Assembly: GCA_017473925.1 (NCBI GenBank)
Contig: JAFUIY010000008.1
Coordinates: 1 to 54,115, forward strand
Length of the DNA: 54,115 bases
Origin: Clostridia bacterium
GTDB taxonomy: Bacteria > Bacillota > Clostridia > Oscillospirales > Acutalibacteraceae
Direction of reading: 5' to 3'
Shown: positions 33,038 through 48,965 of the stretch, in pieces
How positions within the stretch are numbered: the stretch's first letter is position 1
Layout of the letters: each line of letters begins with the position of its first letter
Notes under the pieces: model-generated
Told to the model about the DNA's origin: nothing
What the model saw: the letters and a program-made list of their open reading frames with translations, nothing else
Database searches by the model: none
Translations under genes and position numbers: made by a program

Positions 33038-33055
33038 TCATAAGGAGAATGAACT

Positions 33056-35974
33056 ATGATTTACAAAAAGAACAGTGAAAAGTGTCTTTCAAAAGAACTT
33101 TTTAAAAATCCTACAAGTGAATACAGAGGAACACCCTTCTGGGCATGGAACTGCAAGCTTGATAAAGAAGAACTCAAGTGGCAGATTGAAGTGTTCAAGG
33201 AAATGGGTCTGGGCGGCTTCCATATGCATGTAAGAACAGGTATGGCAACCCCTTATCTTTCTGATGAATACATGGATATTGTCAAGGCTTGTGTTGAAAA
33301 GGCAAAGGAAGAAAAAATGCTTGCATGGCTTTATGACGAGGACAGATGGCCCTCAGGTGCAGCAGGCGGTCTTGTAACGAAAGATAAAAAATACCGTGCA
33401 AGATATCTTCTTTTTACTCCCGAATCATACGAAGACAACGCAACAAGTCTGAATGTCAATGACTCAAGAAGTGAAGGCGGCAGAAACGGTGAAGGAGACT
33501 TTCTTGCAGCATACGATGTTGTTCTTGACGGTGAGGGTTATCTGAAATCATATAAGAGAATCGGCAAGGATGACAAAACTGAGGGCACAAAATGGTATGC
33601 TTATATGGAAATCAGCTCATCATCAAGCTGGTATAATAATCAGGCATATCTTGACACTCTCAGCAAGGATGCCGTAAAACGCTTTGTTGAGGTCACACAT
33701 GAAAGATACAAAGAAACAGTCGGTGATGACTTCGGTGATGCCGTACCTGCAATCTTTACTGATGAGCCTCAGTTCTGCAGAAAACAGACACTCCGTAACT
33801 CAACTGATAAGCATGATATCAATCTGCCCTGGACAGACGATATCCCCGAAACATATAAAAAGGCATACGGTGATGATATTCTTGATTTTCTTCCCGAGCT
33901 TTTCTGGGACAAGAAAAACGAAGTAAGCCTTGCCCGTTACCGTTATCATGACCATATTTCTGAGCGTTTTTCAGAGGCTTTTGCCGATGTATGCGGCTCA
34001 TGGTGCCGTGAAAACGGACTTTATCTCACAGGTCATATGATGGAAGAACCCTCACTTCACAGCCAGACTGCAGCTCTCGGTGAAGCAATGCGTTCATACA
34101 GAGGCTTTGACCTGCCCGGTATTGATATGCTTTGCAACAGCTTTGAGTTCACAACAGCAAAGCAGGCACAGTCGGCATGTCATCAGTTCGGCAGAGAGGG
34201 TGTTCTCTCCGAGCTTTACGGTGTAACAGGCTGGGATTTTGATTTCAGAGGGCATAAGCTTCAGGGCGACTGGCAGGCAGCACTCGGCGTGACAGTCAGA
34301 GTTCCTCATCTTTCATGGGTTTCAATGGCAGGTGAAGCAAAGCGTGATTATCCTGCATCAATTCATTATCAGTCACCCTGGTGGAAAGAATATTCTTATG
34401 TTGAAGACCATTTTGCAAGAGTTTACTCTGCAATGACACGCGGTAAGCCTGTTGTCAAGGTCGGTGTTATTCATCCCGTTGAGTCATTCTGGCTTCATTG
34501 GGGACCCAACGATAAATCAGAGCTTGCCCGTGATGCACTTGATGAAAAATTCTTCAATGTCACAGACTGGCTTCTCAAAGGCAGCATCGACTTCAACTTT
34601 ATCAGTGAATCACTTTTCCCCACACTCTGCGAAAAGGGTACAAATCCTCTTAAAGTCGGTGAAATGGAATACGATGCTATTGTTGTCCCCGATTGCGAAA
34701 CACTCCGTTCATCAACTCTTGAAAGACTTGAAGATTTTGTAAAGAACGGCGGTAAACTCATATTTATGGGCTCTGCTCCCGAATTTGAAAATGCCCTACC
34801 GAGTAATAGAGGTAAAGAACTTTATAATAACAGCACGGTGATTTCCTTTGACCGTGAAAAGCTTCTTTCAGCACTCGAAGACAACAGAACAGTCACAATC
34901 CGTTATAAAAACGGTTCACTTTCAGACAGACTAATTTATCAGATGCGTCAGGATAACGATTGTGATTGGCTCTTTGTGGCTCATGCATGCAATCCTTATA
35001 ATAAGGATGTTTTCTCATCAAAGGATGTAAGAATCTATCTTGACGGTGATAAAAAAGTCACGGTTTATGACACAATTTCAGGTGAAATTTATCCTGCAGA
35101 TGTTGACTATGCAAACGGCAAGACAGTCATAAAACAGGAAATGTATGATTTTGACAGCCTTCTTGTAAAGATTGAAGACGGCAGAAATGATACAGCCGTT
35201 GCAAAGTCTGAAACAAAGGCTTGTGAAAATTTAAAAATCCCCACTTTTGTAGATTATACTCTCGATGAAGAAAATGTTCTTCTTCTTGATATGTGCCGTT
35301 TCAGGACAGATGACGGTGAGTGGCACGACAAGGAAGAAATTCTTATTGCAGACAACATTGCCAGAGCAGAAGCCGGACTTGACGAAAGAGGTGGCTCTGT
35401 ACCTCAGCCATGGGTAATTCCCGAAGAAGAAATTAAACACTCAATCACACTTGAATTTACAATTGATTCAGAAATTGAAGTTGCTTCTCCCGTACTTGCG
35501 CTTGAAGATGCAGAAAAAGCTGAAATCACATTTAACGGACAGAAAGTTGCAAACAATGTTATCGGCTGGTATGTTGATAAATCAATAAAAAAAGTTGCAC
35601 TTCCTTCAATTATCAAGGGTGAAAACATTATAACTGTAAAACTTCCTTTAGGTAACCGTACAAACACAGAATGGTGCTATTTGCTTGGTGATTTCGGTGT
35701 CAGAGTTATCGGCAGTATGGCAACAATCTGCAAAAAGGCTGAAAAACTTACATTCGGTGATATTGTGCCGCAGGGACTTCCTTTCTACGGTGGTAACATC
35801 ACATATCATCTTGAAGCAGAAACAGACAAGGGTGAGCTTCTTATAACTGTTCCCCGTTACAGAGGCGGTCTTGTAAAGGTTATTGTTGACGGTGAAGACA
35901 AGGGTAATATCGTTTATTCTCCCAATGAGCTTCTTGTAAAGGACTTTCAGACGGAAAACATAATGTGGATATAA
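33056..35974 (+). CDS. Large GH106-like glycoside hydrolase, 3' frameshift
   Basis: This 972-residue cytosolic protein starts TEYRGTPFWAWNCKLDKEE-like (SEYRGTPFWAWNCKLDKEE) and continues with EMGLGGFHMHVRTGM and LYDEDRWPSG. These match the N-terminal region of GH106-type alpha-L-rhamnosidase relatives. A TIM-barrel follows with IFTDEPQF and GHMMEEPSL as likely acidic-residue sites, then beta-sandwich domains. The reading frame stops at TAA 35974, but the next 160 bases in another frame encode the expected family ending. One base thus seems to be missing near 35939, and the product as read lacks about 60 C-terminal residues. It is part of the oxidoreductase and beta-helix operon, suited to pectin side-chain sugars. 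Confidence 0.85.
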   Translation: MIYKKNSEKCLSKELFKNPTSEYRGTPFWAWNCKLDKEELKWQIEVFKEMGLGGFHMHVRTGMATPYLSDEYMDIVKACVEKAKEEKMLAWLYDEDRWPSGAAGGLVTKDKKYRARYLLFTPESYEDNATSLNVNDSRSEGGRNGEGDFLAAYDVVLDGEGYLKSYKRIGKDDKTEGTKWYAYMEISSSSSWYNNQAYLDTLSKDAVKRFVEVTHERYKETVGDDFGDAVPAIFTDEPQFCRKQTLRNSTDKHDINLPWTDDIPETYKKAYGDDILDFLPELFWDKKNEVSLARYRYHDHISERFSEAFADVCGSWCRENGLYLTGHMMEEPSLHSQTAALGEAMRSYRGFDLPGIDMLCNSFEFTTAKQAQSACHQFGREGVLSELYGVTGWDFDFRGHKLQGDWQAALGVTVRVPHLSWVSMAGEAKRDYPASIHYQSPWWKEYSYVEDHFARVYSAMTRGKPVVKVGVIHPVESFWLHWGPNDKSELARDALDEKFFNVTDWLLKGSIDFNFISESLFPTLCEKGTNPLKVGEMEYDAIVVPDCETLRSSTLERLEDFVKNGGKLIFMGSAPEFENALPSNRGKELYNNSTVISFDREKLLSALEDNRTVTIRYKNGSLSDRLIYQMRQDNDCDWLFVAHACNPYNKDVFSSKDVRIYLDGDKKVTVYDTISGEIYPADVDYANGKTVIKQEMYDFDSLLVKIEDGRNDTAVAKSETKACENLKIPTFVDYTLDEENVLLLDMCRFRTDDGEWHDKEEILIADNIARAEAGLDERGGSVPQPWVIPEEEIKHSITLEFTIDSEIEVASPVLALEDAEKAEITFNGQKVANNVIGWYVDKSIKKVALPSIIKGENIITVKLPLGNRTNTEWCYLLGDFGVRVIGSMATICKKAEKLTFGDIVPQGLPFYGGNITYHLEAETDKGELLITVPRYRGGLVKVIVDGEDKGNIVYSPNELLVKDFQTENIMWI

Positions 35975-36138
35975 AACTCTTCACACACCGCTTTAATTCT
36001 TTCGGTGCCGTTCATCTTACAGATATTTCACATTCATGGCACGGACCGGGAGCTTGGCGTGAAGAAGACGAAAAATGGAGTTATGAATATAACCTTAAAA
36101 ATGTAGGTATTCTCACGACTCCGTGGATTAAGAAATAA
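35941..36138 (+). pseudogene. Out-of-frame C-terminal part of the GH106-like hydrolase
   Basis: Read in the -1 frame from about 35941, this stretch gives GLSDGKHNVDIKLFTHRFN, then FGAVHLTDISHSWHGPGAW and WSYEYNLKNVGILTTPW, ending at TAA 36136-36138. This fits the last strands of the same galactose-binding-like domain. It joins perfectly if one A is added to GTAAAGG at 35936-35942. It may be a real mutation or a consensus error. Confidence 0.8.
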
Positions 36139-36156
36139 TATATTAAGCATAAAATT

Positions 36157-36188
36157 AAGCAGTTGCTGTGTTTTCAGCAACTGCTTTT
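36157..36188 (+). terminator. Terminator of the sugar operon
   Basis: A 12-pair stem AAGCAGTTGCTG/CAGCAACTGCTT with a six-base loop and T tail, 19 bases after the restored stop of the hydrolase. It may also serve the opposing gene at 36204. Confidence 0.88.
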
Positions 36189-36203
36189 TACATAAAAAGT
36201 ATT

Positions 36204-36566
36204 TTATATAACTTCCGCATAATTAAATTTTATTGAAACAATGTTTTCTTTACCTTTTTTGTCGCAGACGGTTATATCAAGAATAAACTTATTGTTTTCT
36301 TCTCTGAGAGTATCGCAAAACCACCAATTTCCTATAACAAACTCACCTTGAATCATTTTACTATTGTAAAACTTTATTAAACGAGTATTTACAAGTGTTA
36401 ATTCAATTTCGTAATAATTTTTGACAGGTTTCGGGTTGGTATAGTCATAATCAAGATTTATTATATTCACTGCTGTTATTTTAGCATCGTGAAATCCTCC
36501 TGATTTGCCCCAATACCATGAAGGATTTTTACCCGAAAGGTTTTCTGTTGTGTAAATTCTGCTCAT
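36204..36566 (-). CDS. Small orphan protein
   Basis: This 120-residue cytosolic protein is not recognised. It opens with SRIYTTENLSGKNPSWYWGK and GGFHDAKI, and continues as alternating beta strands (YYEIELTLVNTRLIKFYN, then WWFCDTLREENNKF and LDITVCDK). The size and strand pattern recall small immunity-type or DUF proteins found beside secreted proteins. It lies 20 bases after a lipoprotein gene on the same strand, so the two are probably one unit. Confidence 0.65.
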   Translation of the reverse strand: MSRIYTTENLSGKNPSWYWGKSGGFHDAKITAVNIINLDYDYTNPKPVKNYYEIELTLVNTRLIKFYNSKMIQGEFVIGNWWFCDTLREENNKFILDITVCDKKGKENIVSIKFNYAEVI

Positions 36567-36586
36567 GTCAGACTCCTTACAGCAAA

Positions 36587-37096
36587 TTAACTTAAATACT
36601 CATATAATGCCTGCATTTTGTCTGCATAGGCTTTTGCACATTCGTACTCTTTTTCTGTTTTCCATATACTTCCGTAAGTTCCGCCCTGAAATTTCACGAC
36701 AGCAAAATTATTGAAAAATTCAATATTGTTATTGAACTCATTTTCAAGATATTCGCAATACTCGTCAAGAGTTAGATATGCAGAATCAAAAGAGAAGTTT
36801 TCATATCCTATCGCTTCATTTTCTCTTTCTTTGTATTCTTCTTTAATAAGTTCTTTGTATTTGTTTGCACGGTTTATTTCGTCATCTGCCATTTTTGAAA
36901 TTATTTCTGTTCTTTCGTAATTGCTGATGCTCATGTCAGACAGAACGGAAGATAATTCTTCGTCTGTTTTTATGCTGTATGTATTATTTTCAGTTACAGA
37001 ATCCTGCGGATTATCGGATAATTCTTCTTTATTGCATGAGGGTAAGATGATAACAGTGAGCACCAGGATAATTAAAATGGGAATATATTTTTTCAT
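36587..37096 (-). CDS. Small lipoprotein
   Basis: This 169-residue protein has a lipoprotein signal peptide with Cys21 after LPS, then a short D/N/T-rich linker and a mainly helical, highly charged domain (EISNYERTEIISKMADDEI-like and YKELIKEEYKERENEAIG). It should be anchored on the outer face of the membrane. No family was recognised. It is followed by the 120-residue orphan gene. A - strand TATAAT (37175-37180) with a poor -35, TTCAAT, lies upstream. Confidence 0.7.
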   Translation of the reverse strand: MKKYIPILIILVLTVIILPSCNKEELSDNPQDSVTENNTYSIKTDEELSSVLSDMSISNYERTEIISKMADDEINRANKYKELIKEEYKERENEAIGYENFSFDSAYLTLDEYCEYLENEFNNNIEFFNNFAVVKFQGGTYGSIWKTEKEYECAKAYADKMQALYEYLS

Positions 37097-37268
37097 GGTT
37101 TCAACTCCTTATTTTATCATTTTCAATGAATAATTTACATTAATAAAACCATTGGAATCAGCCCTTTTTATTTTATTATAACTCTGATGATGTTTGTATT
37201 GAAATAACTTTTTAGTATAAATTTGATTTTTGTTAAATGTGCATAAATATTGATTGTCTGTTTCGTGC

Positions 37269-37302
37269 AAAAAAAACAGTTACTGCCGTAAAGCAGTAAC
37301 TG
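37269..37302 (-). terminator. Terminator of the glycyl radical enzyme operon
   Basis: On the - strand, stem CAGTTACTGC/GCAGTAACTG (arms 37277-37286 and 37293-37302) with a six-base loop and eight T. It ends the transcript after manA and the repeat arm. Confidence 0.88.
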
Positions 37303-37338
37303 CATAATTGTAAATTGTACATTGTTAATTGTTCATTG
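37303..37338 (-). repeat. Single arm of the AT-rich hairpin repeat
   Basis: ATTGTAAATTGTACATTG (37307-37324) is identical to one arm of the element at 20829-20846. The arm runs into the 3' end of the manA-like gene and supplies its last codons. Confidence 0.6.
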
Positions 37339-38344
37339 GTAAATCACACTGAATAATCTTCATATCACCCTCAGCAAAAAGTTTGCCATCAATTACTGCA
37401 GGTGCAAAGAAATAATCGCCTTTTTTTACTTCTCTGACAAATTCATCACAGATAACTTTTCCGTTGCCGTCTGTTACAACATAAACACTCGGACAGGGAA
37501 GTGAAACCTTTTCATCTTTAACATTGTATCTGCTGACAGCAAAGCAAGGTGTTTTTTCGTGGGTGATTAGTCTTTCAATGTGCCCCTCTTTTACAGGCTC
37601 ACATTTTGCGGCTTTGAGAGTTTTTTCGAGAGAATCAAGCTCCATATCAAAGCAATCAAAAGCAACATCGGGAGTCAGACCTAAATATTTTTCGTTGTCA
37701 CTGAGAACATATTCACCGCATTTGTTTTCGGGCTGAATGGTGAAATCAGTCGGTTCCTGAACTTCAAGAAGCAGGCAGTTTTTACCGATTGCGTGAATTG
37801 CTTTGCCCGGGATAAGAAAAACATCACCTACGTTTACGGGAATTTTGTTAAGCATTGAAACAAGCACGCTTTCATCTTTATCAAAAGCGGCTCTGAATTC
37901 CTCTTTTGAGTATCTCTTGTTGAAGCCAAAGTATATACAGGCATCTTCTCCTGTACCGAGAATTATCCAGCTTTCAGTCTTGCCGTATTCGCTGTTGAAA
38001 TACTTTCTTGAAAATTCTTTGTCAGGATGACACTGAACGGGAAGTCTTATTGATGAATCAAGTATTTTTGTAAGAATGCCCAGTTCAGTTCTGCCTTCAC
38101 CGAGCATTTCTACCGTATGATTCTTCAGAAGTTCATCGAATTTTTCACCGTCTTCTGTTATCGAAATACCTTCATCGGGAATTTCACTGCCTTCATTGAG
38201 TGCTTTTACATAGGAGCAGACCCACTCTTCGGGGAAAAAGCCCTCTGTGCTGTCATCACCGAAAAATGATGCAAACTGACTTCCGCCCGTGTAAATTCTT
38301 CTTACTCTGTTTTTCTTGAAAAATAATGGTTTGTTAAGGTTCAT
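37325..38344 (-). CDS. manA: Class I mannose-6-phosphate isomerase-like protein
   Basis: This 339-residue cupin metalloenzyme would interconvert mannose- and fructose-6-phosphate, or a related aldose/ketose phosphate. Zinc ligands fit: Gln104 and His106 (PVQCHPDKEF), Glu124 (KTESWIIL), and His184 (KAIHAIG). The N-terminus is divergent (TGGSQFASFFGDD and EEWVCSYVKALN replace the usual GExWELS region), so another substrate is possible. It is the last gene of a seven-gene operon, nine bases after an FGGY kinase, which suggests both act on the same phosphorylated sugar. The final residues MNN come from a repeat arm. Confidence 0.82.
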   Translation of the reverse strand: MNLNKPLFFKKNRVRRIYTGGSQFASFFGDDSTEGFFPEEWVCSYVKALNEGSEIPDEGISITEDGEKFDELLKNHTVEMLGEGRTELGILTKILDSSIRLPVQCHPDKEFSRKYFNSEYGKTESWIILGTGEDACIYFGFNKRYSKEEFRAAFDKDESVLVSMLNKIPVNVGDVFLIPGKAIHAIGKNCLLLEVQEPTDFTIQPENKCGEYVLSDNEKYLGLTPDVAFDCFDMELDSLEKTLKAAKCEPVKEGHIERLITHEKTPCFAVSRYNVKDEKVSLPCPSVYVVTDGNGKVICDEFVREVKKGDYFFAPAVIDGKLFAEGDMKIIQCDLPMNN

Positions 38345-38353
38345 TGTGTCACC

Positions 38354-39685
38354 TCATTGATAGTGTATCATCTGTTTTGCGGCTTCAAAGGTGTCTTTAT
38401 AAATGCCTGCTGCAACACTTGCGAAAATAGCGGCACCGAATGATGCTTCTTCCGTGTGTGCAGGGACATAAAGCTTTATGCCGAAAAGCTCTTCAAGATA
38501 ATGTCTTAAAACAGAACTTTTTCTTACGGCATTACCTGAAGACACAAGCACGGAACCATTTATTCCGAAGCCGTCAAAAAGTGTATAAAGCTCACTTGCC
38601 ATGCCGTATAAAAATCCTCTTGTAAGCTCTGCAGGATTGAAATTACTCTCAGTAATCCCCGTAACAGCTCCCTTTAAATCGGGAATTTTTCTTGTACCGC
38701 AGAAACGGGTGTCAACTGTCAGTGAATGTTCATCGGGTCTGATTTCAGCTATCTTGTCCATGTTTTTATAGACATCGTCTTTGTTTCCGCCGAAGATTTC
38801 TGCACACTCAGTGAAGAATTTATGAAGCAGAGCAAAGCTTCTCCCACCACAAAGGGGAGCCCCTACAAGAATATATTTGTTGTCATTCAGAGGTCTTGTT
38901 TCACCGTCTGAAAGTGCTTTCGGCGTGTCAGTTATAACCGATACCTGACTGCCCGTGCCGATGTTTACAAGAATGCTGTTTTCGTCACTTACAGAACCCA
39001 GAACAGACGCCTGATTGTCGCCGATTGCAACTGATACGGGTACACCGTTTTCGTCTTTACCTGCAATAGTACAATCATTGCAGACCTCAGAAAGAAAGCT
39101 TCTGTCAATGCCGATTTTTAATAGTGCATCTTTGTCAAAATCAGCCTTTGTAAGGTCAAAGCAGCCGAGACTTGCCGCATCACTCGAATGTATAAGGGGT
39201 GTTTTTCTGCCTGTCAGCTTCATCACAAGATAGTCGTGAATTGTTGAAAGTGTAACGGCATTTTCAGGAACATTATTTTCCTGAATATTAACGAAATGAG
39301 TAACAAGCCCGAAGCCTGATGCCATTGTATAACCTGTTGCTTCTGTAAGGTATGATGCATAAGTGCCGTCTTTGAATGGCTTGTTTCCGCTTTCATCCTG
39401 CCAGGTGTAAAGAGGGCTTACGGCTTCTCCGTCTTTGTCAAGATACACAATACCGTGCATCTGCCCCGTAACACCGATTGCGGTTATGGGAGAGTATTTT
39501 TCAACAAGCTCATTTTTGATTCTGAGAACTGTGTCAATTATAATTCCGGGATTCTGCAGCTTTGTGCCCTGAATAACAGAATCGTTTTTTACTGTTCTGC
39601 TCTCAAGTATTTTTCCCGTTTCAGCATCAGTCACAACAGCACTGATTGTTGTTGTGCCGATGTCAAGTCCTAATATCTTTAACAT
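38354..39685 (-). CDS. FGGY-family carbohydrate kinase
   Basis: This 443-residue sugar kinase has the ATPase-fold phosphate-1 loop GLDIGTTT (6-13), the substrate-binding GVTGQMHGIVYLD and TWQDESG, and a catalytic Asp223 in AIGDNQASVLG. Phosphate loop 2 is NIGTGSQVS and the adenosine motif is VSSGNAVRKS. The length and GQMHG box are closer to sedoheptulokinase- and xylulokinase-like enzymes than to glycerol kinase. It overlaps the glycyl radical enzyme gene by seven bases and precedes manA by nine. Likely it phosphorylates a ketose or polyol linked to the radical enzyme. The substrate is unknown. Confidence 0.88.
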   Translation of the reverse strand: MLKILGLDIGTTTISAVVTDAETGKILESRTVKNDSVIQGTKLQNPGIIIDTVLRIKNELVEKYSPITAIGVTGQMHGIVYLDKDGEAVSPLYTWQDESGNKPFKDGTYASYLTEATGYTMASGFGLVTHFVNIQENNVPENAVTLSTIHDYLVMKLTGRKTPLIHSSDAASLGCFDLTKADFDKDALLKIGIDRSFLSEVCNDCTIAGKDENGVPVSVAIGDNQASVLGSVSDENSILVNIGTGSQVSVITDTPKALSDGETRPLNDNKYILVGAPLCGGRSFALLHKFFTECAEIFGGNKDDVYKNMDKIAEIRPDEHSLTVDTRFCGTRKIPDLKGAVTGITESNFNPAELTRGFLYGMASELYTLFDGFGINGSVLVSSGNAVRKSSVLRHYLEELFGIKLYVPAHTEEASFGAAIFASVAAGIYKDTFEAAKQMIHYQ

Positions 39686-42042
39686 TCTATTCCACCTGTT
39701 GATTTCGGGTCAAGTCTTGTTATGATATCCTGCTGAATTGCAGGTGAGAGGTCAAGGAAATTAACAAATGTGCCGTGAATTCTCATGATATATACACCGC
39801 TCGGAGCATATTTCTTGGGATTATCAAGCACCTTTCTGAGCATTTCGGGTGTTGTGATGTTAAGATACATATAGAACGGTGAAATGCCCTGCTGTAAGGG
39901 ATTGAAGAAAAGGGGATTTACGATTTTTGTTCTGAATTCAAGTCCCTTTGCTTCGTATGTTTCACCTTTGAAATATTTGGGGGCAATACCGAGATGTGAT
40001 GCACAGCCTCCGCACATTTTGTCATAGGGAAGCTTCATCTGTGAAAGTGTACGGAAACCGAGTCCCTGATTGGCATCACCGTGAAGAGGGTCAATACCGT
40101 AGTTGAGCATTTCTCTTGATTTTCTGCCGTCAGGAAGTGCTCCGACCCAGTAACCGTAAAGAAGATGTGTTGACGGTGTGCTGAAATCAGGACGGAAAGG
40201 ATTGCCGAGATAGTTTTTCTTTGATGCAACAATATCGGCAATCTTTGATGTAACCTCAACTGCTTCCTTATCTGCAATTTCATTATTATTTCCGAATTTG
40301 GGGCAGGAGAGAAGATAATCTCTGAGTTCTTCATAGCCCTCAAAGTTATTCTTTATAGCGTCAATAAGCTTGTCTGCATCCTCGGGACGGTCTTTAAGAA
40401 GACAGTCAATTGCAACAAAGCTGTCTGCAACAACGCTTGTGCCGTGAATAAGACATCCGCTGCCGTTGTATATTGTTCCCTGATTATCGATGTCTCTTGC
40501 ATCGTAGCCTGACTCAATACCGCCCATAACAGCTGAGAGGAAAGGCACGGGGAGAAGTGAAAGTGCTTTTGAAGCACCGTTTGCGGCATCTGTCATAAGA
40601 GAAGCATATTCTTCTGCATTTGCATAGAACTTTTCTCTGATATTCTGCAGTTTTTCGAGGGCAGAAGAATCATCTGTCTTTCCGATTCTCTTGCCTGTAA
40701 TCTCCGAAAAACCGCCTGTGAGTGTGAGTTCAAGAATTTTGCCGAGATTGAACCAGCTGTTTGTTGTGTTACCTGAATCCTTACCCATGATAAGGGGTTC
40801 CTGACAGCCTGCAATTGAGTAATCTGCAAGATGCTCAGTTTTTACTCCGTGGTTTGAAAGTACTTCAAACATTGCATCGTCATTGAAAAGTGAGGGTGTA
40901 AGACAACCTGGTGTGAAGAAGAATTTACCCATAGCCTCATAAACTGAGTCGGGTGTATTCTTGTGAAGCTTGACTGAGAGAATAGGCTGAGGCATGTTCA
41001 TATCGTAATAAGCATCGAAAAGGGCAAATGATGTTTCATTTGTCATATCATTGCCGTTTTCATCCTTGCCGCCGATAATAAGATTCTGAGAAATTGCCCA
41101 GCTTCTGTCTGCAACATTATAGAAAACAAGAAGATGCTTGAGAAGTGCTGCTGTGTCTTCTCGTGAAAGGTTTTCCTTTGCTCTGTAAGGCTCGAAAATT
41201 CTGTCTGCATTGCCGACAGAGAATGCAAAGGGATTGGGAGCCTGCTCAAGACACATAATCTGCCACAGGAGTATAAAACTCTGTATAGCCTCGAAGAGTG
41301 TTTCTGCACCCTTAGCAGGGACCTTTGCGAGTGCTTCTGCAATATTGATAAGCCGCAGCTTTTCGTCTTCATCATTTGTTTTTTCTGCATTTTCAAGAGC
41401 AAGATTTCTGTATCTTTCTGCAAGGATAAGAACAGCTTCAAGGGCATATTTCATACCTCTGCGGTGTGAATTCTGCTTGTCGTTGCCCTCTTTTTTGTCA
41501 AGCTCTTCAATAAGGTGCTTTACACCGTATTTTATTGCAGGTCTCATATCGGGAATAACATGTCCCGTAACCTGCTCAATGAAGAATGCAACCTCATCTG
41601 TGTATTCGCTGTATTTGTCATAAACCTTTGAAAGCTCTTTAACAAAGGGCGTTTCTTTATCGTAAGCACGCATCTTCTCAATGCGTTCTTTTGTGAATTC
41701 TGCGTCTTCATCGATATCATCATAGACTGCTGTGGGGTCACAGTAGCCTGAGAATGTTTCAACTCTGAATGCAGGATTAATAAGAGCATAGCTTCTTGCA
41801 AAAGCATCTCTCTGTGTACCCGCAAATACAGCGTATCTGCTGATTGAAAGAGGCAGTCTTTCTGCAATGATTTTAAGCTGCTGACCTGCTTTTTCAACGG
41901 GAGGAAGGTCCTCCCACAGTTCGTCTGTTTCCCGTCTGTATTCCTTGATTCTGAACCAGCCGTCAAGCTTTTTGAGTGAACGCTCCTCCTTGAAAAGTTC
42001 CTTTGCGAGGTTTGTCAGATGTTCGTGATTGCCGATTTTCAT
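39679..42042 (-). CDS. Glycyl radical enzyme of unassigned class
   Basis: This 787-residue oxygen-sensitive enzyme belongs to the pyruvate formate-lyase-like family. The thiyl Cys413 lies in SIAGCQEPL with Glu415 two on, the C-x-E pattern of glycerol dehydratase and choline lyase; PFL has CC. The radical glycine aligns with Gly757 in VYIMRIHGTFVNFLDLS. That loop differs from the usual RVxGY, with His before and Thr after the Gly. The rest of the C-terminal helix (LSPAIQQDIITR) is normal. A dedicated activase is encoded 11 bases upstream, and a sugar kinase and an isomerase follow. A C-O or C-C cleaving role on a polyol or sugar-derived substrate is inferred. Confidence 0.88.
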   Translation of the reverse strand: MKIGNHEHLTNLAKELFKEERSLKKLDGWFRIKEYRRETDELWEDLPPVEKAGQQLKIIAERLPLSISRYAVFAGTQRDAFARSYALINPAFRVETFSGYCDPTAVYDDIDEDAEFTKERIEKMRAYDKETPFVKELSKVYDKYSEYTDEVAFFIEQVTGHVIPDMRPAIKYGVKHLIEELDKKEGNDKQNSHRRGMKYALEAVLILAERYRNLALENAEKTNDEDEKLRLINIAEALAKVPAKGAETLFEAIQSFILLWQIMCLEQAPNPFAFSVGNADRIFEPYRAKENLSREDTAALLKHLLVFYNVADRSWAISQNLIIGGKDENGNDMTNETSFALFDAYYDMNMPQPILSVKLHKNTPDSVYEAMGKFFFTPGCLTPSLFNDDAMFEVLSNHGVKTEHLADYSIAGCQEPLIMGKDSGNTTNSWFNLGKILELTLTGGFSEITGKRIGKTDDSSALEKLQNIREKFYANAEEYASLMTDAANGASKALSLLPVPFLSAVMGGIESGYDARDIDNQGTIYNGSGCLIHGTSVVADSFVAIDCLLKDRPEDADKLIDAIKNNFEGYEELRDYLLSCPKFGNNNEIADKEAVEVTSKIADIVASKKNYLGNPFRPDFSTPSTHLLYGYWVGALPDGRKSREMLNYGIDPLHGDANQGLGFRTLSQMKLPYDKMCGGCASHLGIAPKYFKGETYEAKGLEFRTKIVNPLFFNPLQQGISPFYMYLNITTPEMLRKVLDNPKKYAPSGVYIMRIHGTFVNFLDLSPAIQQDIITRLDPKSTGGIEC

Positions 42043-42053
42043 TTTATCACACC

Positions 42054-42761
42054 CTATGTTTTAATAACTTTAATTGAGTTTTTTTTGAATTTATCAATAA
42101 ATTTCTTTATTGTTTCATTTTTTACAAAGCCGTCTGTGACGGTGTATTCTTTGCCGAGCTTCAGCCACTTTTCCTTGCCGTATTCGTGGTAAGGAAGTAT
42201 TTCCACATCATAATTATCATTAAGGGAACTGAAAAAATCAATAAATCCCTGAAGTGATTCGTCATCATCATTGAATGAGTGAATCAATGGAATTCTTATA
42301 TGAATGTGTTTTGATTTTTCAATATTTCTGATATTGCTTTCGATTACCTGAAGATTACCGACTGTTATAGCTTTCAGTCTTTCCTGTATGGGGGATTTGA
42401 AATCTGCAATTACGGTATCGCATTTTTTTGCAACAGAGAGAAAATCAGGTGTATCAGCATTTGATTCAATACAGAAGCTGACATGGGGAAGACTGTCAAT
42501 TATTTCGCATAATGCTTCTGCCTGCAGAGTACATTCACCGCCCGTGAATGTTACACCTCCGCCGTCAAAAAACATCGGCTCTGAAGAAATGATTTCATTG
42601 ATTATTTCCGATGTGTCATATTCTTTTCCCGATTTTGTCATACCCTCGGGGTTTGAACACCATGGACAGACCATGTTACACCCCGAAAGGTGATATACAA
42701 GTCTGTTTCCGGGGCCGTCCTGAGAATAATTGAATCCTTTTTCAAAAACTGTTATCTTCAT
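42054..42761 (-). CDS. Glycyl radical enzyme activase (radical SAM)
   Basis: This 235-residue radical SAM protein makes the glycyl radical on its partner. The CX3CX2C motif is Cys28, Cys32 and Cys35 (LSGCNMVCPWCSNPEG), with the SAM-binding TFTGGECTLQ and, further on, VIADFKSP. It is of the short, PFL-activase type: there is no ferredoxin-like insert with extra clusters after the CxxxCxxC loop. It overlaps the transporter gene by four bases and lies 11 bases before the radical enzyme gene, so they are translated together. Confidence 0.93.
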   Translation of the reverse strand: MKITVFEKGFNYSQDGPGNRLVYHLSGCNMVCPWCSNPEGMTKSGKEYDTSEIINEIISSEPMFFDGGGVTFTGGECTLQAEALCEIIDSLPHVSFCIESNADTPDFLSVAKKCDTVIADFKSPIQERLKAITVGNLQVIESNIRNIEKSKHIHIRIPLIHSFNDDDESLQGFIDFFSSLNDNYDVEILPYHEYGKEKWLKLGKEYTVTDGFVKNETIKKFIDKFKKNSIKVIKT

Positions 42762-43714
42762 TTTTTTGCTTTATTACCGATTTTAAAATCGGGAAGCTGA
42801 GCCATAATGATTGCAACAAACATGACTGCAAAGCCGATAAATTCTCTCTGTGTCGGGAGATTTCCTCGGATAACCCAGTCTGCAAGACCTGAGAAAACTG
42901 ATTCAAGACTCATAAGCAAGGGAGCGAGAATATGATTACAATGCTTCTGTCCGATAATCTGAAGAGTAAAGGCTGCACCGCCTGAAAGGACACCTGAATA
43001 AAGAAGAGGAATTGCATTTGCCTTGATGACCTCAAGGTCAGGCTTTTCAAATATCAGCATAAGAATGGTTGCAATCAGTGCTGTAATGCCGAACTGAATA
43101 CATGAAAGCTTTACGCCGTCAACCTTATCCGAAACCAAGTCAACCGTGATAATCTGAGCACCGAAACCGAATGCACATATAATGAGCATAATGTCAGCAG
43201 TTGACATTGAAAGTCCTGCACCGGGAGTGATTGAAATAAAATACAGACCTACCATGCCGACAGCAACGCTGAGCCATGCCATAAGGCCTACCTTTTTCCT
43301 GAAGAAAATACCGAATATCGGTACAAAAATTATGTAAAGAGCTGTAAGGAATGCTGCTCTGCCTGTGGAAACATCCTTGCCCTGCATATCAATACCGTAT
43401 TGCTGAAAAATACAGCCTACAGCAAGTGTGATACCGCATATAATACCTGCTATGGTGAGTGTTTTGTTTTCTGTAAACCAATGCTTAAGACTATTGTATT
43501 TTTTCTTGTTAAGCTTTGCTTTGCCTGTATTGTTCTGTATGAGAACAACCACAAGGATTGAAAGGAATGCAAGAGTGCTTCTGATGCTCTGGAATGTGAA
43601 TGAGCCCACATCTCCGCCTTCACTCTGTGCAACGAATGAAATACCCCATATAAGTGATGCAAGTACAATGAGAAGGGGACTGATAATTTTTTGTGCCTTT
43701 AATTTTCTGTCCAT
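42758..43714 (-). CDS. DMT-superfamily transporter (EamA)
   Basis: This 318-residue membrane protein has ten predicted helices in two repeated EamA halves. The first half opens with LIVLASLIWGISFVAQSEG and the second ends LESVFSGLADWVIRGNLPT, both typical. DMT/EamA transporters export or import amino acids, sugars or metabolites; no motif tells the substrate. It sits between alanine racemase (three bases upstream) and the activase (four-base overlap), so a role in moving the substrate or product of the operon is likely. Confidence 0.9.
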   Translation of the reverse strand: MDRKLKAQKIISPLLIVLASLIWGISFVAQSEGGDVGSFTFQSIRSTLAFLSILVVVLIQNNTGKAKLNKKKYNSLKHWFTENKTLTIAGIICGITLAVGCIFQQYGIDMQGKDVSTGRAAFLTALYIIFVPIFGIFFRKKVGLMAWLSVAVGMVGLYFISITPGAGLSMSTADIMLIICAFGFGAQIITVDLVSDKVDGVKLSCIQFGITALIATILMLIFEKPDLEVIKANAIPLLYSGVLSGGAAFTLQIIGQKHCNHILAPLLMSLESVFSGLADWVIRGNLPTQREFIGFAVMFVAIIMAQLPDFKIGNKAKK

Positions 43715-43717
43715 TTT

Positions 43718-44872
43718 TTACCTCAGATAATTGACTGTTTTTATGATTTTTCCGTCTTTTTTATAGACTCTCGGTATTCTTCTTGAAACACCGCATATAA
43801 CTTCATAATTGAAGCTCATTGATTTTTCACCGATTTCTTCTGCAGAAACGGTGAGATTGCCGTCAGAGCCGAACAGGATGACTTCATCTGTTACATCACA
43901 ATCAATGTCGGTTACATCAATCATGAACATATCCATACATACTCTGCCCACGATAGGAGCATATTTACCGTTTACAATTACTCTTCCGCAGCCTGACAGT
44001 GCTCTGGGATAGCCGTCTGCATAGCCTGCAGAAACGGTTGCAATGCGACGTTTTTCAGATGTTTTATATGTGTGACCGTAGCTTATACCTACATTTTCAT
44101 TTACATCTTTTATGCTTATTATGTGGCTTTTGAAAGTTAAAGCAGAATAAAGATTAATTTTTGATTTATCAATTTCATCTGACGGATATAATCCGTATAG
44201 TGAAATTCCCATTCTGACAAGGTCAAAATGCTCATCGAATTCGGAAATGCCTGCAGAATTGCACATGTGATGGATACTGAATGAAACACCTGCATTATTA
44301 CATTTTTCAACAAAGTCCTTGTAAAGAGCAGTCTGCTTATCTGAAACAGTCTTGTCTGTCATATCTGCACACGCATAATGCGAGAAAATGCCTTCAAGCT
44401 CAATGTTTTCAAGTCTGCTGATTTCACATACTGCTTTTACTGAATCCTCATCGGGGGTAAATCCAATCCGTGTCATTCCCGTATCAACGGCAATATGTAT
44501 TTTTGCAACTTTTCCGAGCCTTTTTGCTGTTTCGCTTATTTTCTTTGCTCTTTCTTTATTGTAAACAGTCAGTCTTACATCATTGTTGATAAGCTCTTCA
44601 TAGTCATCGGAATGTGTGTATGAAAGTATAAGTATGTTATTATTAATTCCCGAGCTCCTGAGCTCCATTGCTTCATCTGCCGATGCAACGGCAAAAAAAT
44701 CCACTTTATCTGAAAGTAATTCTGCAATTGTAACAGCTCCGTGACCGTAAGCATCAGCCTTTACAACGGCACAGCTTAGGGTGCCACTGCTTATGCATTT
44801 CTTAAGCTCCTTGAGATTATGTTCAATTGCATCAACATCAATTTCAGCAAATGTTCTTAAATATCTGTTCAT
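43718..44872 (-). CDS. alr: Alanine racemase
   Basis: This 384-residue PLP enzyme converts L- to D-alanine. The PLP lysine is Lys38 in CAVVKADAYGHGA. Other signatures are HIAVDTGMTRIGF, FSHYACAD, MCNSAGI and the tyrosine box GISYGHTYKT, ending PIVGRVCMDMFMIDVT. Together these confirm a full-length type III fold racemase, probably cytosolic and usually needed for peptidoglycan. Its ATG overlaps the stop of the aminotransferase gene by four bases. Whether it is the cell's only racemase or a pathway copy cannot be judged here. Confidence 0.96.
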   Translation of the reverse strand: MNRYLRTFAEIDVDAIEHNLKELKKCISSGTLSCAVVKADAYGHGAVTIAELLSDKVDFFAVASADEAMELRSSGINNNILILSYTHSDDYEELINNDVRLTVYNKERAKKISETAKRLGKVAKIHIAVDTGMTRIGFTPDEDSVKAVCEISRLENIELEGIFSHYACADMTDKTVSDKQTALYKDFVEKCNNAGVSFSIHHMCNSAGISEFDEHFDLVRMGISLYGLYPSDEIDKSKINLYSALTFKSHIISIKDVNENVGISYGHTYKTSEKRRIATVSAGYADGYPRALSGCGRVIVNGKYAPIVGRVCMDMFMIDVTDIDCDVTDEVILFGSDGNLTVSAEEIGEKSMSFNYEVICGVSRRIPRVYKKDGKIIKTVNYLR

Positions 44873-45762
44873 TTAATTTCACCTTTATCAGTGTTATTAA
44901 TGTCTGTTTTTGTGAGAAAATCGTTCATCAGATAATCCTGCAGTTTTTTTAGCATTTCAGGATTTTTTCCGCCGACGGGTTTACCGTCTATTTCAACGGT
45001 CCTTATGCAGAATGTGTCGCAGCAAGTTATGATTACTTCGTCAGCATTCATCAGGTCTTCAAGATAAAATTCCTTTTCTGCAACTTCATAGCCGAGTACT
45101 TTTGCGGCATTCATAAGGTGTCTTCGTGCTATTCCAGAAAGAATAAGATTGTCAGCAGGAGGAGTAATGAGTGTGTCATTCTTTATGATATGCACATTTG
45201 AATGGGCACATTCCGTAACCCTGCCGTTTCTGTGGAGAATTGCTTCGTCACAGCCCTTTTCGAGTGCAGTCTGATAAGCCATGATTGCAGGGATAAGGTT
45301 GAGGGTTTTTATGTCACAGTGAAAAAATCTTGTGTCAGGCACGGTGATTGCCTTGTATGTCGTATTGATGTCAACAAACTGTGTTTTGTCAATCATAATC
45401 CAGATGTTGGCTTTACTGCCGTCTGTGGGAAATGCGTGACTTCTCAGCCCTGAGCCTCTTGTTGCCTGCCAGTATATGAAGCAGTCACCGAAATCCATCT
45501 TACGGAGCATTTCATAAAGGAGATTTTTCATTTCTTCTTTTGAGTGGGGAAGCTCAATCCTGAGCTTTTCGGCACTTCTGAAAAACCTGTCTATATGCTC
45601 ATCTATATTGTAAATTATGTAATTTCTTGAAAAAGTGGCATCGTAACAGCCGTCACCGAAGTAACAGCCTCTGTCCGTCATAGGAACCTGCATATTTTCA
45701 ATTTCATCAAATCTTCCGTTGTAATAGCCGAGAGTTTTCACCAGTTTCACCTGACTTTCCAT
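44869..45762 (-). CDS. dat: Class IV aminotransferase, D-amino-acid type
   Basis: This 297-residue PLP enzyme interconverts D-amino acids and keto acids. Lys152 in HCDIKTLNLIPAIMA is the PLP lysine, and the family boxes are DRGCYFGDGCYDATF, TRGSGLRSHAFP, GCDEAILHRNGRVTE and ILSGIARRHLM. The D-amino-acid transaminase is favoured over branched-chain types by DIKTLNLIP and by the alanine racemase neighbour. The predicted transcript start nearly coincides with the ATG. A GTG seven codons in (45741), preceded by AGGTGA, could be the true start and would give a normal leader. Confidence 0.85.
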   Translation of the reverse strand: MESQVKLVKTLGYYNGRFDEIENMQVPMTDRGCYFGDGCYDATFSRNYIIYNIDEHIDRFFRSAEKLRIELPHSKEEMKNLLYEMLRKMDFGDCFIYWQATRGSGLRSHAFPTDGSKANIWIMIDKTQFVDINTTYKAITVPDTRFFHCDIKTLNLIPAIMAYQTALEKGCDEAILHRNGRVTECAHSNVHIIKNDTLITPPADNLILSGIARRHLMNAAKVLGYEVAEKEFYLEDLMNADEVIITCCDTFCIRTVEIDGKPVGGKNPEMLKKLQDYLMNDFLTKTDINNTDKGEIK

Positions 45763-45768
45763 CTTTTT

Positions 45769-45797
45769 ATTATAACATTATTAATATATAAAGTCAA
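45769..45797 (-). promoter_or_regulatory. Promoter of the seven-gene radical enzyme operon
   Basis: On the - strand, TTGACT-N17-TATAAT, a near-consensus sigma-A site. It ends seven bases before the aminotransferase ATG and lies right after the terminator of the ABC operon. Confidence 0.78.
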
Positions 45798-45798
45798 G

Positions 45799-45827
45799 AA
45801 AAAACGCAGAGTAAAAACCTCTGCGTT
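45799..45827 (-). terminator. Terminator of the ABC transporter operon
   Basis: On the - strand, stem AACGCAGAG/CTCTGCGTT with a T-rich tail. It overlaps the stop codon of the ATPase gene. Confidence 0.88.
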
Positions 45828-46467
45828 ACAATAATTCTGCTTTAATTTCATCGGGACATGAAAAATGATTTTTATCATCAATTCTTAAGCCGGTTACAGG
45901 CTTTGAGTCGATGAAAATTATTCTGTCTGCAAGAAAAAATGCTTCCTCGGGACTGTGTGTAATAATGAATGCTGTTTTATCCTTTACCGTGCTTTTTATC
46001 ATTTCAAGAATTCCCTGAGATGTCTTTGCATCAAGTCCGTAAAGAGGCTCATCAATAAAGAAAATATCACCGTCAAAAGCAGTGGCTCTTGCAATTGCCG
46101 TACGCCTTGCCATGCCTCCGCTTAACTGAGTAACTCTTTTGTCTTTGTCTGCAATAAGTCCTGTTTTTCTGAGTGCATCGTCAATTTTTTCCGTATTATC
46201 AGTGACATATTTCAGATTGTCAATAACACTCATATGCGGCAGAAGTCTGTTTTCCTGAAAAATATAGGATTTCCTCATTTTTTCGGATCCTGTGATTTTT
46301 CCCGAATCAACAGCTTTTAACCCTGCAATCAGGTTCATGAGCGTTGTTTTTCCGATTCCCGACGGCCCCATTATACAGTAGATTTTCTTTTCTTCAAGTT
46401 CTGCTGACATCTCAGAAATTATTTTTTCATTATTGTAGGAAAAGGAGATTTTATCAAGCTTTATCAT
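45826..46467 (-). CDS. ABC transporter ATP-binding protein, NitT/TauT type
   Basis: This 213-residue ATPase has Walker A GPSGIGKTT, a Q-loop in YIFQENRLLPH, the ABC signature LSGGMARRTAIARA and Walker B FFIDEPLYGLD, followed by the switch His in IITHSPEEA. The QENRLLPH form is typical of nitrate, sulfonate and taurine importers. It overlaps the permease gene by 14 bases. It energises uptake of the ligand bound by the lipoprotein encoded two genes upstream. Confidence 0.94.
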   Translation of the reverse strand: MIKLDKISFSYNNEKIISEMSAELEEKKIYCIMGPSGIGKTTLMNLIAGLKAVDSGKITGSEKMRKSYIFQENRLLPHMSVIDNLKYVTDNTEKIDDALRKTGLIADKDKRVTQLSGGMARRTAIARATAFDGDIFFIDEPLYGLDAKTSQGILEMIKSTVKDKTAFIITHSPEEAFFLADRIIFIDSKPVTGLRIDDKNHFSCPDEIKAELL

Positions 46468-47224
46468 TCTTTTTCTCCTTTCTGAGTATCAGAAGCATTA
46501 TTTTTTCAAGAATAATGCTGAGAATAACAACAACGGCAGTCCATGCAAACATTGCAGATGGTTCAAAATATACCTTTGATTCGTAAATACCGTTGCCGAT
46601 TGACATTGTTGGATTGCAGATTACCTCTGCGGCAATTCCGGCTTTCCATGCCAGTCCCATTGCAGTCGTAGCAGCCGAAATAAAGTATGGCTTGACTGAC
46701 GGAATATAAAGCTTTAAGAGCTTTCTTCCGAAGGGGACACCGAAAGCATCAGACATTTCAATAAGACCCCTGTCAGTTTCTTCAAAGCCCGTTTTTATGT
46801 TTGAATAGACAAATGGGAAAACAATAAGTGCTGTTGCAAATGACGGAATATTGCCCGTTTTAAGCCATATTACAGCAAGAATAATAAATGATGCAACGGG
46901 TGTTGCTTTGATTATGCTGACAAGAGGGGATAGGAATTCAGAAAATCCTTTTACAAATGAAGATACAGCACCCGTCAGAACACCTGCAAGAGTTCCCGTA
47001 ATAAAACCGACAGAAATTCTTACAACTGAAAGCAGAACAGACATCCAGAAATCACTTGTTACAACGAGCTTTTTCAGTTCAATGATTGTATCTATAGGAG
47101 ACGGAAAAAGGACGGAAAGCCCGATAACGGCAGACAGAGCCTGCCATATACCGAGCCATATAATTGCTATGATTAATTTTTTGCCTGTTTTTTTAAGCGT
47201 TTGTGTCAACATAGAAATCATCAC
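46454..47224 (-). CDS. ABC transporter permease, NitT/TauT type
   Basis: This 256-residue inner-membrane permease has about six helices. The cytoplasmic coupling loop is EMSDAFGVPFGRKLLKLYIP, with the later AATTAMGLAWKAGIAAEVI. Both match the SsuC/TauC group. The start is uncertain: ATGs at 47224 and 47212 (MLTQTLKK) both follow weak GGTG sites. The gene overlaps the binding-protein gene by 32 bases. Transported substrate unknown. Confidence 0.92.
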   Translation of the reverse strand: MMISMLTQTLKKTGKKLIIAIIWLGIWQALSAVIGLSVLFPSPIDTIIELKKLVVTSDFWMSVLLSVVRISVGFITGTLAGVLTGAVSSFVKGFSEFLSPLVSIIKATPVASFIILAVIWLKTGNIPSFATALIVFPFVYSNIKTGFEETDRGLIEMSDAFGVPFGRKLLKLYIPSVKPYFISAATTAMGLAWKAGIAAEVICNPTMSIGNGIYESKVYFEPSAMFAWTAVVVILSIILEKIMLLILRKEKKNDKA

Positions 47225-48230
47225 CGGGCATCTGTCCGCCGATTATTTTTGCATTCTGATTGAAAAGAACATTGTAACAGCTGCTCAGAGCCTGTTTCAT
47301 TTCAGCACCTGTGTAGCATACGATGTTTGCATTGGGGATTGCCTTCTTTGCAACTGCAGCAGGCATAATGTCATGCTTTTCAATGAGTGCAGCGGCATCT
47401 TCAATATTTGCGTTTACATAATTTACAGATTCATTGTAATCTGCAAGGAATGCCTTTACAGCATCTTTATTTTCTTCATAGAATTTTGCATTGACTGCGA
47501 TACATCCCATTGCGAGAGTGCATTCACCTGTCTTTTCCCATTCTTCAGTGATGTTGATTGCAACTGAGAAGGATGCATCCTTTGTGATAATCTGTGATAC
47601 AAAGGGCTCGGGAAGGAGTACTGCATCGTAACCGCCTGCGATAGCTTTTGTAACAGATTCTGCATGCTCTGTTGAAAACTCAATTGTAACATCTGTACCG
47701 ATTGTGAGATTATTTGATTCAAGAACATAGTTGAGAGCATACTCTGCAATTGTGCCCTGACCTGAAGCAAGGATTGTCTTGCCCCTGAGGTCTTCTACAG
47801 AGGAAACTGCACCGTCTTTTGTCACGATATAAAGAACGCCAAGAGTATTGACTGCAATAACCTTGACCTTGCCTTCAGATTTCTGATAAAGAGAAGCTGC
47901 AAGGTTTGTGGGAACAGCTGCAATATCATATTCACCCTTTATAAGCTTGGGACCTACTGTTGTAGCATCTGTATCAAGAGTGATGTTGTAGTTGTTTGTT
48001 GTTTCGCCGTTAACTGATTTTTCCCACATGTAGGCACCGCCCATACCTGTAGGACCCTTGAGAAGTGAAACATTGATAACATCTGTGTCAGAAGCTGTGC
48101 TTTCTGCTTCTTCAATAATGCTTTCGCTGTCTGTTGAAGGTTCTTCGTTAACTGTTGTGTCTGAACATGCTGCAAATGATACAAGAATCATCATAAGTGC
48201 AAGCAATGCTGCTGTGATTTTTTTTGTCAT
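47193..48230 (-). CDS. ABC substrate-binding lipoprotein, NMT1/SsuA-like
   Basis: This 345-residue lipoprotein (Cys22 after SFAA) captures the ligand outside the cell. The mature part is of the NMT1/THI5, SsuA or TauA type: INVSLLKGPTGMGGAYMWEK, LRGKTILASGQGTIAEYAL and GYDAVLLPEPFVSQIIT. Typical ligands are sulfonates, nitrate, or thiamine and flavin precursors; sequence alone does not decide. The start at 48230 has an AGGAGG site; longer upstream readings lack one and begin inside the regulator's end. It is probably cotranscribed with the Crp-like gene 37 bases upstream. Confidence 0.92.
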   Translation of the reverse strand: MTKKITAALLALMMILVSFAACSDTTVNEEPSTDSESIIEEAESTASDTDVINVSLLKGPTGMGGAYMWEKSVNGETTNNYNITLDTDATTVGPKLIKGEYDIAAVPTNLAASLYQKSEGKVKVIAVNTLGVLYIVTKDGAVSSVEDLRGKTILASGQGTIAEYALNYVLESNNLTIGTDVTIEFSTEHAESVTKAIAGGYDAVLLPEPFVSQIITKDASFSVAINITEEWEKTGECTLAMGCIAVNAKFYEENKDAVKAFLADYNESVNYVNANIEDAAALIEKHDIMPAAVAKKAIPNANIVCYTGAEMKQALSSCYNVLFNQNAKIIGGQMPGDDFYVDTNA

Positions 48231-48267
48231 GGTTTTGTCCTCCTGTTTTGCATGACGCATTTTATAC

Positions 48268-48933: not shown

Positions 48934-48949
48934 AAAACACCTCAAAATC

Positions 48950-48965
48950 TGTATCACATGATACA
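48950..48965. promoter_or_regulatory. Likely Crp/Fnr-type operator
   Basis: TGTATCACATGATACA is a perfect inverted repeat, TGTATCA-N2-TGATACA. It resembles the TGTGA-N6-TCACA and TTGAT-N4-ATCAA layout of this family. It covers the end of the -10 and the predicted start point of the regulator's own promoter, a position that suits repression. Confidence 0.7.

Follow-up and report, generated by a model that had tools for sequence, protein, structure and literature searches.

A conserved cassette of activase, glycyl radical enzyme and FGGY kinase in gut Clostridia points to an undescribed anaerobic breakdown of carbohydrates

The DNA analysed here (the window) comprises the 54,115 nucleotides of contig JAFUIY010000008.1 (assembly GCA_017473925.1), from a Clostridia bacterium of the family Acutalibacteraceae. 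It harbours a gene cassette for a glycyl radical enzyme that belongs to none of the named classes tested and whose glycyl loop is altered, together with a dedicated FGGY carbohydrate kinase. Comparison of 84 loci reveals that the conserved unit consists of the activase, the enzyme and the kinase, joined in about six loci out of ten by a gene for a protein resembling mannose-6-phosphate isomerase (PMI). The cassette points to an undescribed anaerobic breakdown of carbohydrates. We infer that the enzyme is an eliminase and that its substrate is a carbohydrate; the exact substrate, and the placing of the radical step before phosphorylation, are guesses. Among the open-licence papers listed in a search, none appears to describe the cassette, which is no proof of novelty. 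The four genes in the window are the following (SAM, S-adenosylmethionine; aa, amino acids):

42054-42761, minus strand: radical-SAM activase, 235 aa (PF04055/PF13353; below all NCBIfam activase cut-offs listed)
39679-42042, minus strand: glycyl radical enzyme, 787 aa (PF02901, 365.8 bits, cut-off 24.3)
38354-39685, minus strand: FGGY carbohydrate kinase, 443 aa (PF00370/PF02782; best NCBIfam match XylB, TIGR01312, 138.5 bits, cut-off 380.25)
37325-38344, minus strand: class-I mannose-6-phosphate-isomerase-like (manA-like) protein, 339 aa (TIGR00218, 70.7 bits, under the cut-off of 116.2)

The comparison started from 94 loci, the window's included, and 84 were left after removal of identical or contained enzyme proteins; related genomes are counted more than once among them. 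Genes were counted by tblastn, with the loci that have enough flank as denominators, and G- and L-numbers designate genomes (G000 being the window's own) and loci, respectively. The activase gene immediately precedes the enzyme gene in 82 of 83 loci. Downstream of the latter, a kinase gene of the window's subfamily follows within 5 kb in 71/75 loci and a PMI-like gene in 45/73, and activase, kinase and isomerase genes are found together in 43 of 72. Several loci, among them L053, L054, L059, L154 and L156, have the last two in the opposite order. The genes flanking the set vary, including those for a tRNA synthetase, the DNA polymerase beta clamp, carbamoyl-phosphate synthase and the RecD2 helicase, and as the flanks differ beyond the set, the latter has been kept or moved as a unit. 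An earlier interpretation of the window from its letters alone, hereafter the sequence-only reading, had made its case depend on the recurrence of the activase, radical enzyme, FGGY and manA-like genes in other genomes, and such recurrence is what these counts establish.

The window's activase has the motif CNMVCPWC (CX3CX2C) and lacks the cysteine-rich insert of longer activases. The activases of the family are usually about 235 aa long without this insert, but some have one (e.g. in L039 and L046, 287 aa). Two operons are closed by a second, canonical activase of 277 aa with extra cysteines (L053:14631-15464 and L055:5972-6805); tblastn with the window enzyme found no second radical enzyme in these two stretches.

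The kinase accompanies the enzyme across genomes as well. We chose 30 of 60 enzyme-positive genomes of the family and 30 enzyme-negative ones, mostly well-complete and not picked at random, and at E up to 1e-20 matches to the kinase subfamily were obtained in 29/30 of the former vs 0/30 of the latter. In the sole miss, G024, the contig stops 250 bases beyond the enzyme gene, in the direction in which the kinase is expected. The kinase of G081 and G229 is on another contig although that of the enzyme extends many kb on that side; in G176 it is likewise on a different contig, and the enzyme's contig ends there. The genomes tested also contain three weaker FGGY matches, with 28-29% identity. Five FGGY_N matches over the cut-off are present in the window's own genome, that of the cassette included. 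In a tree with the four others of this genome and six FGGY kinases of E. coli, the 19 family kinases sampled fall into a single clade on a long stem (SH-aLRT, a likelihood-ratio branch support, 100). All 19 contain the motif GQMHG, found among the ten other kinases only in XylB of E. coli. FGGY kinases with GQMHG are known to act on ketoses. The window's kinase shares this motif with XylB, its best NCBIfam match, yet it scores under the xylulokinase cut-off and belongs to a clade of its own; presumably the family kinase also resembles sedoheptulokinases in its motifs. By these distributions, enzyme and kinase are tightly paired.

Catalytic positions of the enzyme can be proposed by homology. 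Cys413 and Glu415 form a Cys-x-Glu (CXE) motif in GCQEP, Gly757 lies in RIHGTF, and His161 completes the set. Gly757, Arg754, Cys413 and Glu415 are invariant in an alignment of 19 members, as are Cys413, Arg754 and Gly757 in alignments of 40 and of 10 sequences, the latter with PflD and YbiW. AGCQEP is present in 81/81 members and RIHGTF in 80/80 of those with a complete end; these counts cover 81 of the 84 loci, the open reading frame (ORF) of the enzyme being uncalled in L118, L125 and L168 (L118 has a 1098-aa antisense ORF). The glycyl loop reads R[VI][ASG]G[YF] in 29 comparators, namely 12 enzymes of other loci, 13 other enzymes of relatives, the own genome's protein resembling pyruvate formate-lyase (PFL), and PflD, YbiW and PflB of E. 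coli. For this comparison 14 of the 19 other-enzyme loci L014-L032 were taken, and L017 is uncounted, an antisense ORF without the motif having been used there.

For the role of the CXE motif in eliminases we rely on PMC7077986, and for those of the catalytic residues in glycerol dehydratase and HypD on PMC7077986 and PMC8473560. The Cys-x-Glu motif of the window enzyme would fit a dehydration or elimination. To compare pockets, we read the alignment to glycerol dehydratase (1r8w/1r9d) and HypD by eye, with a provisional contact list for the former. The window enzyme has in common with glycerol dehydratase, a distant relative (201 bits over 731 residues), the first-strand His, the CXE motif and the Cys and Gly loops, and His161, Cys413 and Glu415 are kept. 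Other pocket positions differ. Invariant Asp312, beside Arg313, takes the place of Phe333 in glycerol dehydratase and Ser334 in HypD; Phe or Tyr272 and Ala273 that of His281/Ser282 in glycerol dehydratase; and Ser318 that of Tyr339, while Asp447 falls in the invariant T426-T427-N428. RIHGTF also sets the family apart from glycerol dehydratase and the eliminases, and the loop before the Asp312 place is shorter than in PflD.

By its fold, its Cys and Gly residues and its activase, the protein would be a glycyl radical enzyme, and by motif it is eliminase-like. It shares with the superfamily the PFL-like barrel, the alignment of Cys and Gly and the radical-SAM activase, and with the eliminases the CXE motif; PF01228 and the R[VI][ASG]G[YF] loop are missing, which is a matter of profiles and not of chemistry. 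Among solved structures, it comes nearest in sequence to glycerol dehydratase 1r8w (E 2.5e-58) and to 2f3o (E 1.1e-57), an entry named 'pyruvate formate-lyase 2', and a profile search agrees that glycerol dehydratase is the best structural relative by sequence (2.3e-77). No NCBIfam cut-off for a glycyl radical class is reached: the best match is to subfamily TIGR01774 (247.7 vs 678.2 bits), scores for HypD (209.3 vs 1100) and CutC (159.1 vs 1050) are far too low, and the cut-offs of two sulfopropanediol dehydratases and of the indoleacetate and 4-hydroxyphenylacetate decarboxylases are missed as well. HypD, CutC, the sulfopropanediol dehydratases and isethionate lyase, the last compared only through PDB matches, belong to the same superfamily and have the CXE motif. 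Orthologs are 58-95% identical to the window enzyme, 58% being the lowest local identity among the loci, and other matches reach at most 32%. In the enzyme tree, the family forms one clade (SH-aLRT 100) with a stem of 2.33 changes per column, but its placement among the other classes is unsafe, as long branches meet there.

A PFL-type enzyme or another lyase, cleaving a C-C bond of a keto acid or sugar next to an incidental kinase, is an improbable interpretation. A distant PFL match exists (TIGR01255, 64.7 bits), and CXE is not limited to eliminases. However, the PFL cut-off is 994.2 bits, and all 81 members have GCQE at the active site where PFL has a Cys pair. Moreover, another protein of the own genome (L002) is PFL-like and clusters with PflB of E. 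coli, and the tight pairing with the kinase hardly looks accidental. The sequence-only reading would have given way had the enzyme belonged to a known class such as PFL; it lies outside PFL and every named class tested.

The unusual loop raises another question, as an enzyme that has lost its glycyl radical and survives as a relic or a binding protein would explain both RIHGTF, in place of R[VI][ASG]G[YF], and the undetected Gly_radical domain. At an E-value limit of 10, with most matches above about 0.1 dropped by the filters of HMMER, Gly_radical (PF01228) is not listed for 3/3 members, whereas it matches both control enzymes at about 1e-30; PF02901 gives 345-366 bits in the three members vs about 700 in the two controls. 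Against a relic speak the invariant Gly757, Arg754, Cys413 and Glu415, the conservation of AGCQEP and of the Gly loop in all members that could be scored, and the activase in front of the enzyme gene in all but one locus. The ratios of non-synonymous to synonymous substitutions (dN/dS) relative to L033, L034 and L035, 0.05, 0.05 and 0.08, denote purifying selection, and a constraint as strong as this argues against a relic too. We therefore consider loss of the radical quite unlikely. The boldest interpretation, which we hold to be less likely than not, is an unnamed deep class whose altered loop has a His before and a Thr after the radical Gly, in place of a small residue and an aromatic one. 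Such enzymes would act on a sugar, polyol or anhydro-sugar that carries no phosphate, by a radical step not yet described, and pass the keto product to a dedicated FGGY kinase.

As for the reaction itself, we see an even chance that an eliminase-type enzyme acts on a neutral polyol or anhydro-sugar and that the xylulokinase-like kinase phosphorylates the keto product. The activase would install a radical on Gly757, which would generate a thiyl radical on Cys413, and the latter would abstract a hydrogen from a hydroxyl-bearing carbon of the substrate. Glu415, with His161, might then take the hydroxyl proton, and departure of the adjoining hydroxyl or the ring oxygen would yield a deoxy-keto (or deoxy-aldehyde) sugar. 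This product would be phosphorylated at its terminal hydroxyl by the FGGY kinase, and the isomerase, where present, could shift the carbonyl between aldose and ketose for entry into sugar-phosphate metabolism. The substrate class is suggested by the kinase, by the sugar-type regulators of the fetched stretches (AraC-type in 14/84 loci, ROK in 12/84) and by scattered glycosidases. An anaerobic cleavage or dehydration followed by phosphorylation and isomerisation had already been proposed from the window alone. The gene set, the kinase pairing and the CXE motif partly support that outline, in which the order of the steps is conjectural; its amino-sugar finds no support, and its isomerase is frequent but not universal.

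Several observations weigh against this pathway. No transporter is conserved in the set across the compared loci, the isomerase gene is missing from 28/73 loci, and the kinase gene from 4/75, at least one of which has the kinase elsewhere. Two of the 29 kinase matches carry stops (one TGA and one TAA in G089, one TGA in G195), which speaks either for a lack of constraint there or for sequencing errors. CXE is no proof of elimination, because arylacetate decarboxylases have it too. A keto product suits the kinase, but a 1-deoxy-ketose could not serve as a normal PMI substrate. The aldolase family expected to cleave it, transaldolase/fructose-6-phosphate aldolase (PF00923), is present in only 5/30 genomes with the enzyme vs 3/30 without, which also weakens a general route through such an aldolase and a 1-deoxy-ketose phosphate, an idea prompted by L049 and the E. 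coli genes described below. Finally, the glycosidases vary by lineage and indicate no common sugar. Genes for GH51, GH38 and GH32 glycoside hydrolases, an aldose epimerase or a transaldolase/fructose-6-phosphate aldolase occur within the cassette gene run in single lineages, and an attempt to deduce the substrate from the adjoining glycosidases was abandoned: these three families, like DUF2961, a beta-helix protein and a weak GH2-like match, are spread over different loci, and no common substrate emerges from them.

The order of events might also be the reverse, the kinase (with the isomerase) making a sugar phosphate or anhydro-hexitol phosphate that the radical enzyme then opens or dehydrates, as YbiW and PflD do. 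According to PMC12441222, these E. coli enzymes act on 1,5-anhydroglucitol-6-phosphate and 1,5-anhydromannitol-6-phosphate by ring opening, and the phosphotransferase system (PTS) is used; this ring opening is the closest precedent for the reaction of the cassette. As in the cassette, a radical enzyme and its activase are encoded in a carbohydrate gene cluster, pflD with PTS genes and fsaB, and ybiW with fsaA. One locus, L049, has a transaldolase/fructose-6-phosphate aldolase gene between those of the enzyme and the kinase, and the invariant Arg313 could hold a phosphate. Nevertheless, the family is only 26% identical to PflD and 21% to YbiW, and in the tree it is placed apart from both, a weak argument given the long branches. 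We saw no PTS gene in the set, which has FGGY and PMI-like genes in place of PTS and/or aldolase genes; an aldolase link like that of E. coli is seen in L049 alone, relatives of its aldolase being confined to 1/84 loci, and the aldolase family is present in few of the enzyme-positive genomes, as stated above. The preference of GQMHG kinases for ketoses does not favour this order either. The cassette enzyme is thus not a close relation of YbiW and PflD with their partners, and phosphorylation first, though the best founded of the alternatives, seems rather unlikely to us. We retain the radical step on a neutral substrate as our working model.

The place of the isomerase is less clear than that of the kinase. 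The window's manA-like protein aligns with the B. subtilis-type PMI 1qwr over residues 66-203 and is homologous to it, yet it remains under the equivalog cut-off for class I ManA. At E 1e-50, a PMI-like match is found in 27/30 genomes with the enzyme vs 1/30 without. We do not take this co-occurrence as proof of pairing: in 11 of the 27 the sole PMI-like copy (36-43% identity) is remote from the enzyme gene, and several of these copies belong to other sugar clusters. The own genome has a further PMI-like match on contig C96, 33% identical to the window's manA-like protein. A PMI-like gene closes an inositol-like cluster in L188 (GFO/IDH, thiamine pyrophosphate enzyme, xylose-isomerase-like and PHP genes, as scanned), and by clustering L185 and L191 have the same arrangement; the PMI-like gene might stand in for the IolB isomerase there. 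In L183 (scanned) and L186 (by clustering), it adjoins a RhaA-type gene.

Other accessory genes and absences are worth recording. A 216-aa protein without any Pfam match over the cut-off is encoded behind the isomerase gene in L036 (14770-15420) and six other loci, whose enzymes are 66-68% identical to that of the window. In L110, L111, L112 and L115, the isomerase gene is absent and a beta-helix protein of 516-537 aa is encoded behind the kinase, after a gap of 27-30 bases; no solved relative was found for the one searched. The transaldolase/fructose-6-phosphate aldolase family has no match at E 1e-10 in 52/60 family genomes (the assemblies are incomplete), so that many of them may run their pentose phosphates without it.

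In the window, the four genes belong to a row of seven ORFs, all on the minus strand, that fills positions 37325-45762. The remaining genes and the flanking signals are:

44869-45762, minus strand: dat, D-amino-acid-transaminase-like (TIGR01121, 233 bits, under the cut-off of 277.45; Aminotran_4), neighbour
43718-44872, minus strand: alr, alanine racemase (TIGR00492, 355.6 bits, over the cut-off of 168; Ala_racemase), neighbour
42758-43714, minus strand: EamA-type transporter (PF00892), neighbour outside the conserved set
45797-45769, minus strand: promoter-like site before dat, TTGACT-17-TATAAT (consensus match only)
37303-37276, minus strand: terminator-like hairpin behind the manA-like gene, 12 pairs and a T run (consensus match only)

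The gene order and family names given by the sequence-only reading agree with Pfam and NCBIfam, and the coordinates confirm its six tight junctions, all overlapping or at most 11 bases long (-4, +3, -4, +11, -7 and +9 bases from dat to the manA-like gene). Both of the signals it named were also found. The promoter-like site agrees with 11/12 consensus positions and has TG ahead of the second hexamer. However, a scan of positions 36500-46500 gave 37 promoter-like sites vs 24.0 expected and 13 terminator-like sites vs 7.1 expected; such sites are above chance there, yet not rare. As the -10 box ends 7 bases from the listed ATG of dat, the message, if this promoter is used, is likely to be nearly leaderless, or else dat starts further in. 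An Rfam search of positions 36000-47000 gave no match.

Tight junctions between one promoter-like and one terminator-like site could suggest a single seven-gene pathway for a D-amino acid or an amino-sugar, as had been supposed, but the 84-locus comparison contradicts it. Ahead of the enzyme gene, EamA and alr are found in 4/73 loci each and dat in 2/73, all confined to the window and its 91-95% identical relatives L033-L035, i.e. one close clade. Furthermore, the window's alr is the single match to the alanine racemase family (PF00842) in its genome (93% complete). It most likely serves the cell wall, as the sole racemase of its family found there, and for the same reason the D-amino-acid genes are taken as mere neighbours. 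With these genes outside the pathway, there is no reason to assume an amino-sugar substrate, and we hold the seven-gene pathway to be highly improbable.

Further genes surround this row. Behind it lies an ORF for a lipoprotein-like protein of 169 aa without a Pfam match (36587-37096, minus strand). On its other side, positions 45826-48993 (minus strand) encode an ATP-binding cassette (ABC) transporter made up of an ATPase, a permease and a phosphonate/NMT1-like binding protein; immediately ahead of these genes, and in the same orientation, lies one for a Crp-like regulator. The ABC transporter genes extend up to alr with small gaps in L033 and L035, the two loci of this clade in which dat was not found. 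Positions 49084-50685 (minus strand) encode a GH25 lysozyme-type protein that also has SH3 domains and a dockerin. The plus strand has, at 31090-35974, consecutive genes for a GFO/IDH/MocA oxidoreductase, a rhamnogalacturonase-like beta-helix protein and a 972-aa GH106-like protein, likely a pectin/rhamnoside cluster. A GH106-like gene and a GFO/IDH/MocA oxidoreductase gene also lie beside the cassette in L033-L035.

The cassette is patchily distributed. The 40 loci turned up by a scan of genome contigs fall into 27 with 59-95% identity and 13 with 23-29%, and the titles of the named records indicate a ruminant gut site for 19/27 close relatives. Clostridia with the cassette come from the gut of sheep, goats, buffalo and other animals. 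Among 60 relatives of the window's organism, 11 genomes, including its own, have a match of at least 61% identity, and no other listed match exceeds 32%. In the family sample (E up to 1e-150), 60/398 genomes and 22/135 genera have a match; at E up to 1e-90, 10/394 genomes do so in the order sample, and in the phylum sample the own genome is the single one among 398. At the genus level, an enzyme with 91-95% identity is present in some genomes, two others (G004 and G010) have only one with 61-63%, and 5/11 lack it, a pattern suggestive of gain and loss or of transfer. In plasmid records, relatives of the enzyme are only 22-29% identical among the 40 of 139 matches listed, and those of the kinase only 24-26% among the 30 of 329 listed.

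Classes of glycyl radical enzymes have revealed anaerobic reactions of the gut, on choline, hydroxyproline, isethionate and 1,5-anhydroglucitol. The tightly paired kinase means that the substrate of the present family can be sought from both ends, and the RIHGTF loop raises the question to what extent the Gly loop is required for a radical to form and persist. A cassette as patchy as this may mark a nutrient of the ruminant gut habitat. If our interpretation is correct, it would represent a radical entry into sugar catabolism, which profile-based annotation can overlook as the Gly_radical model misses it.

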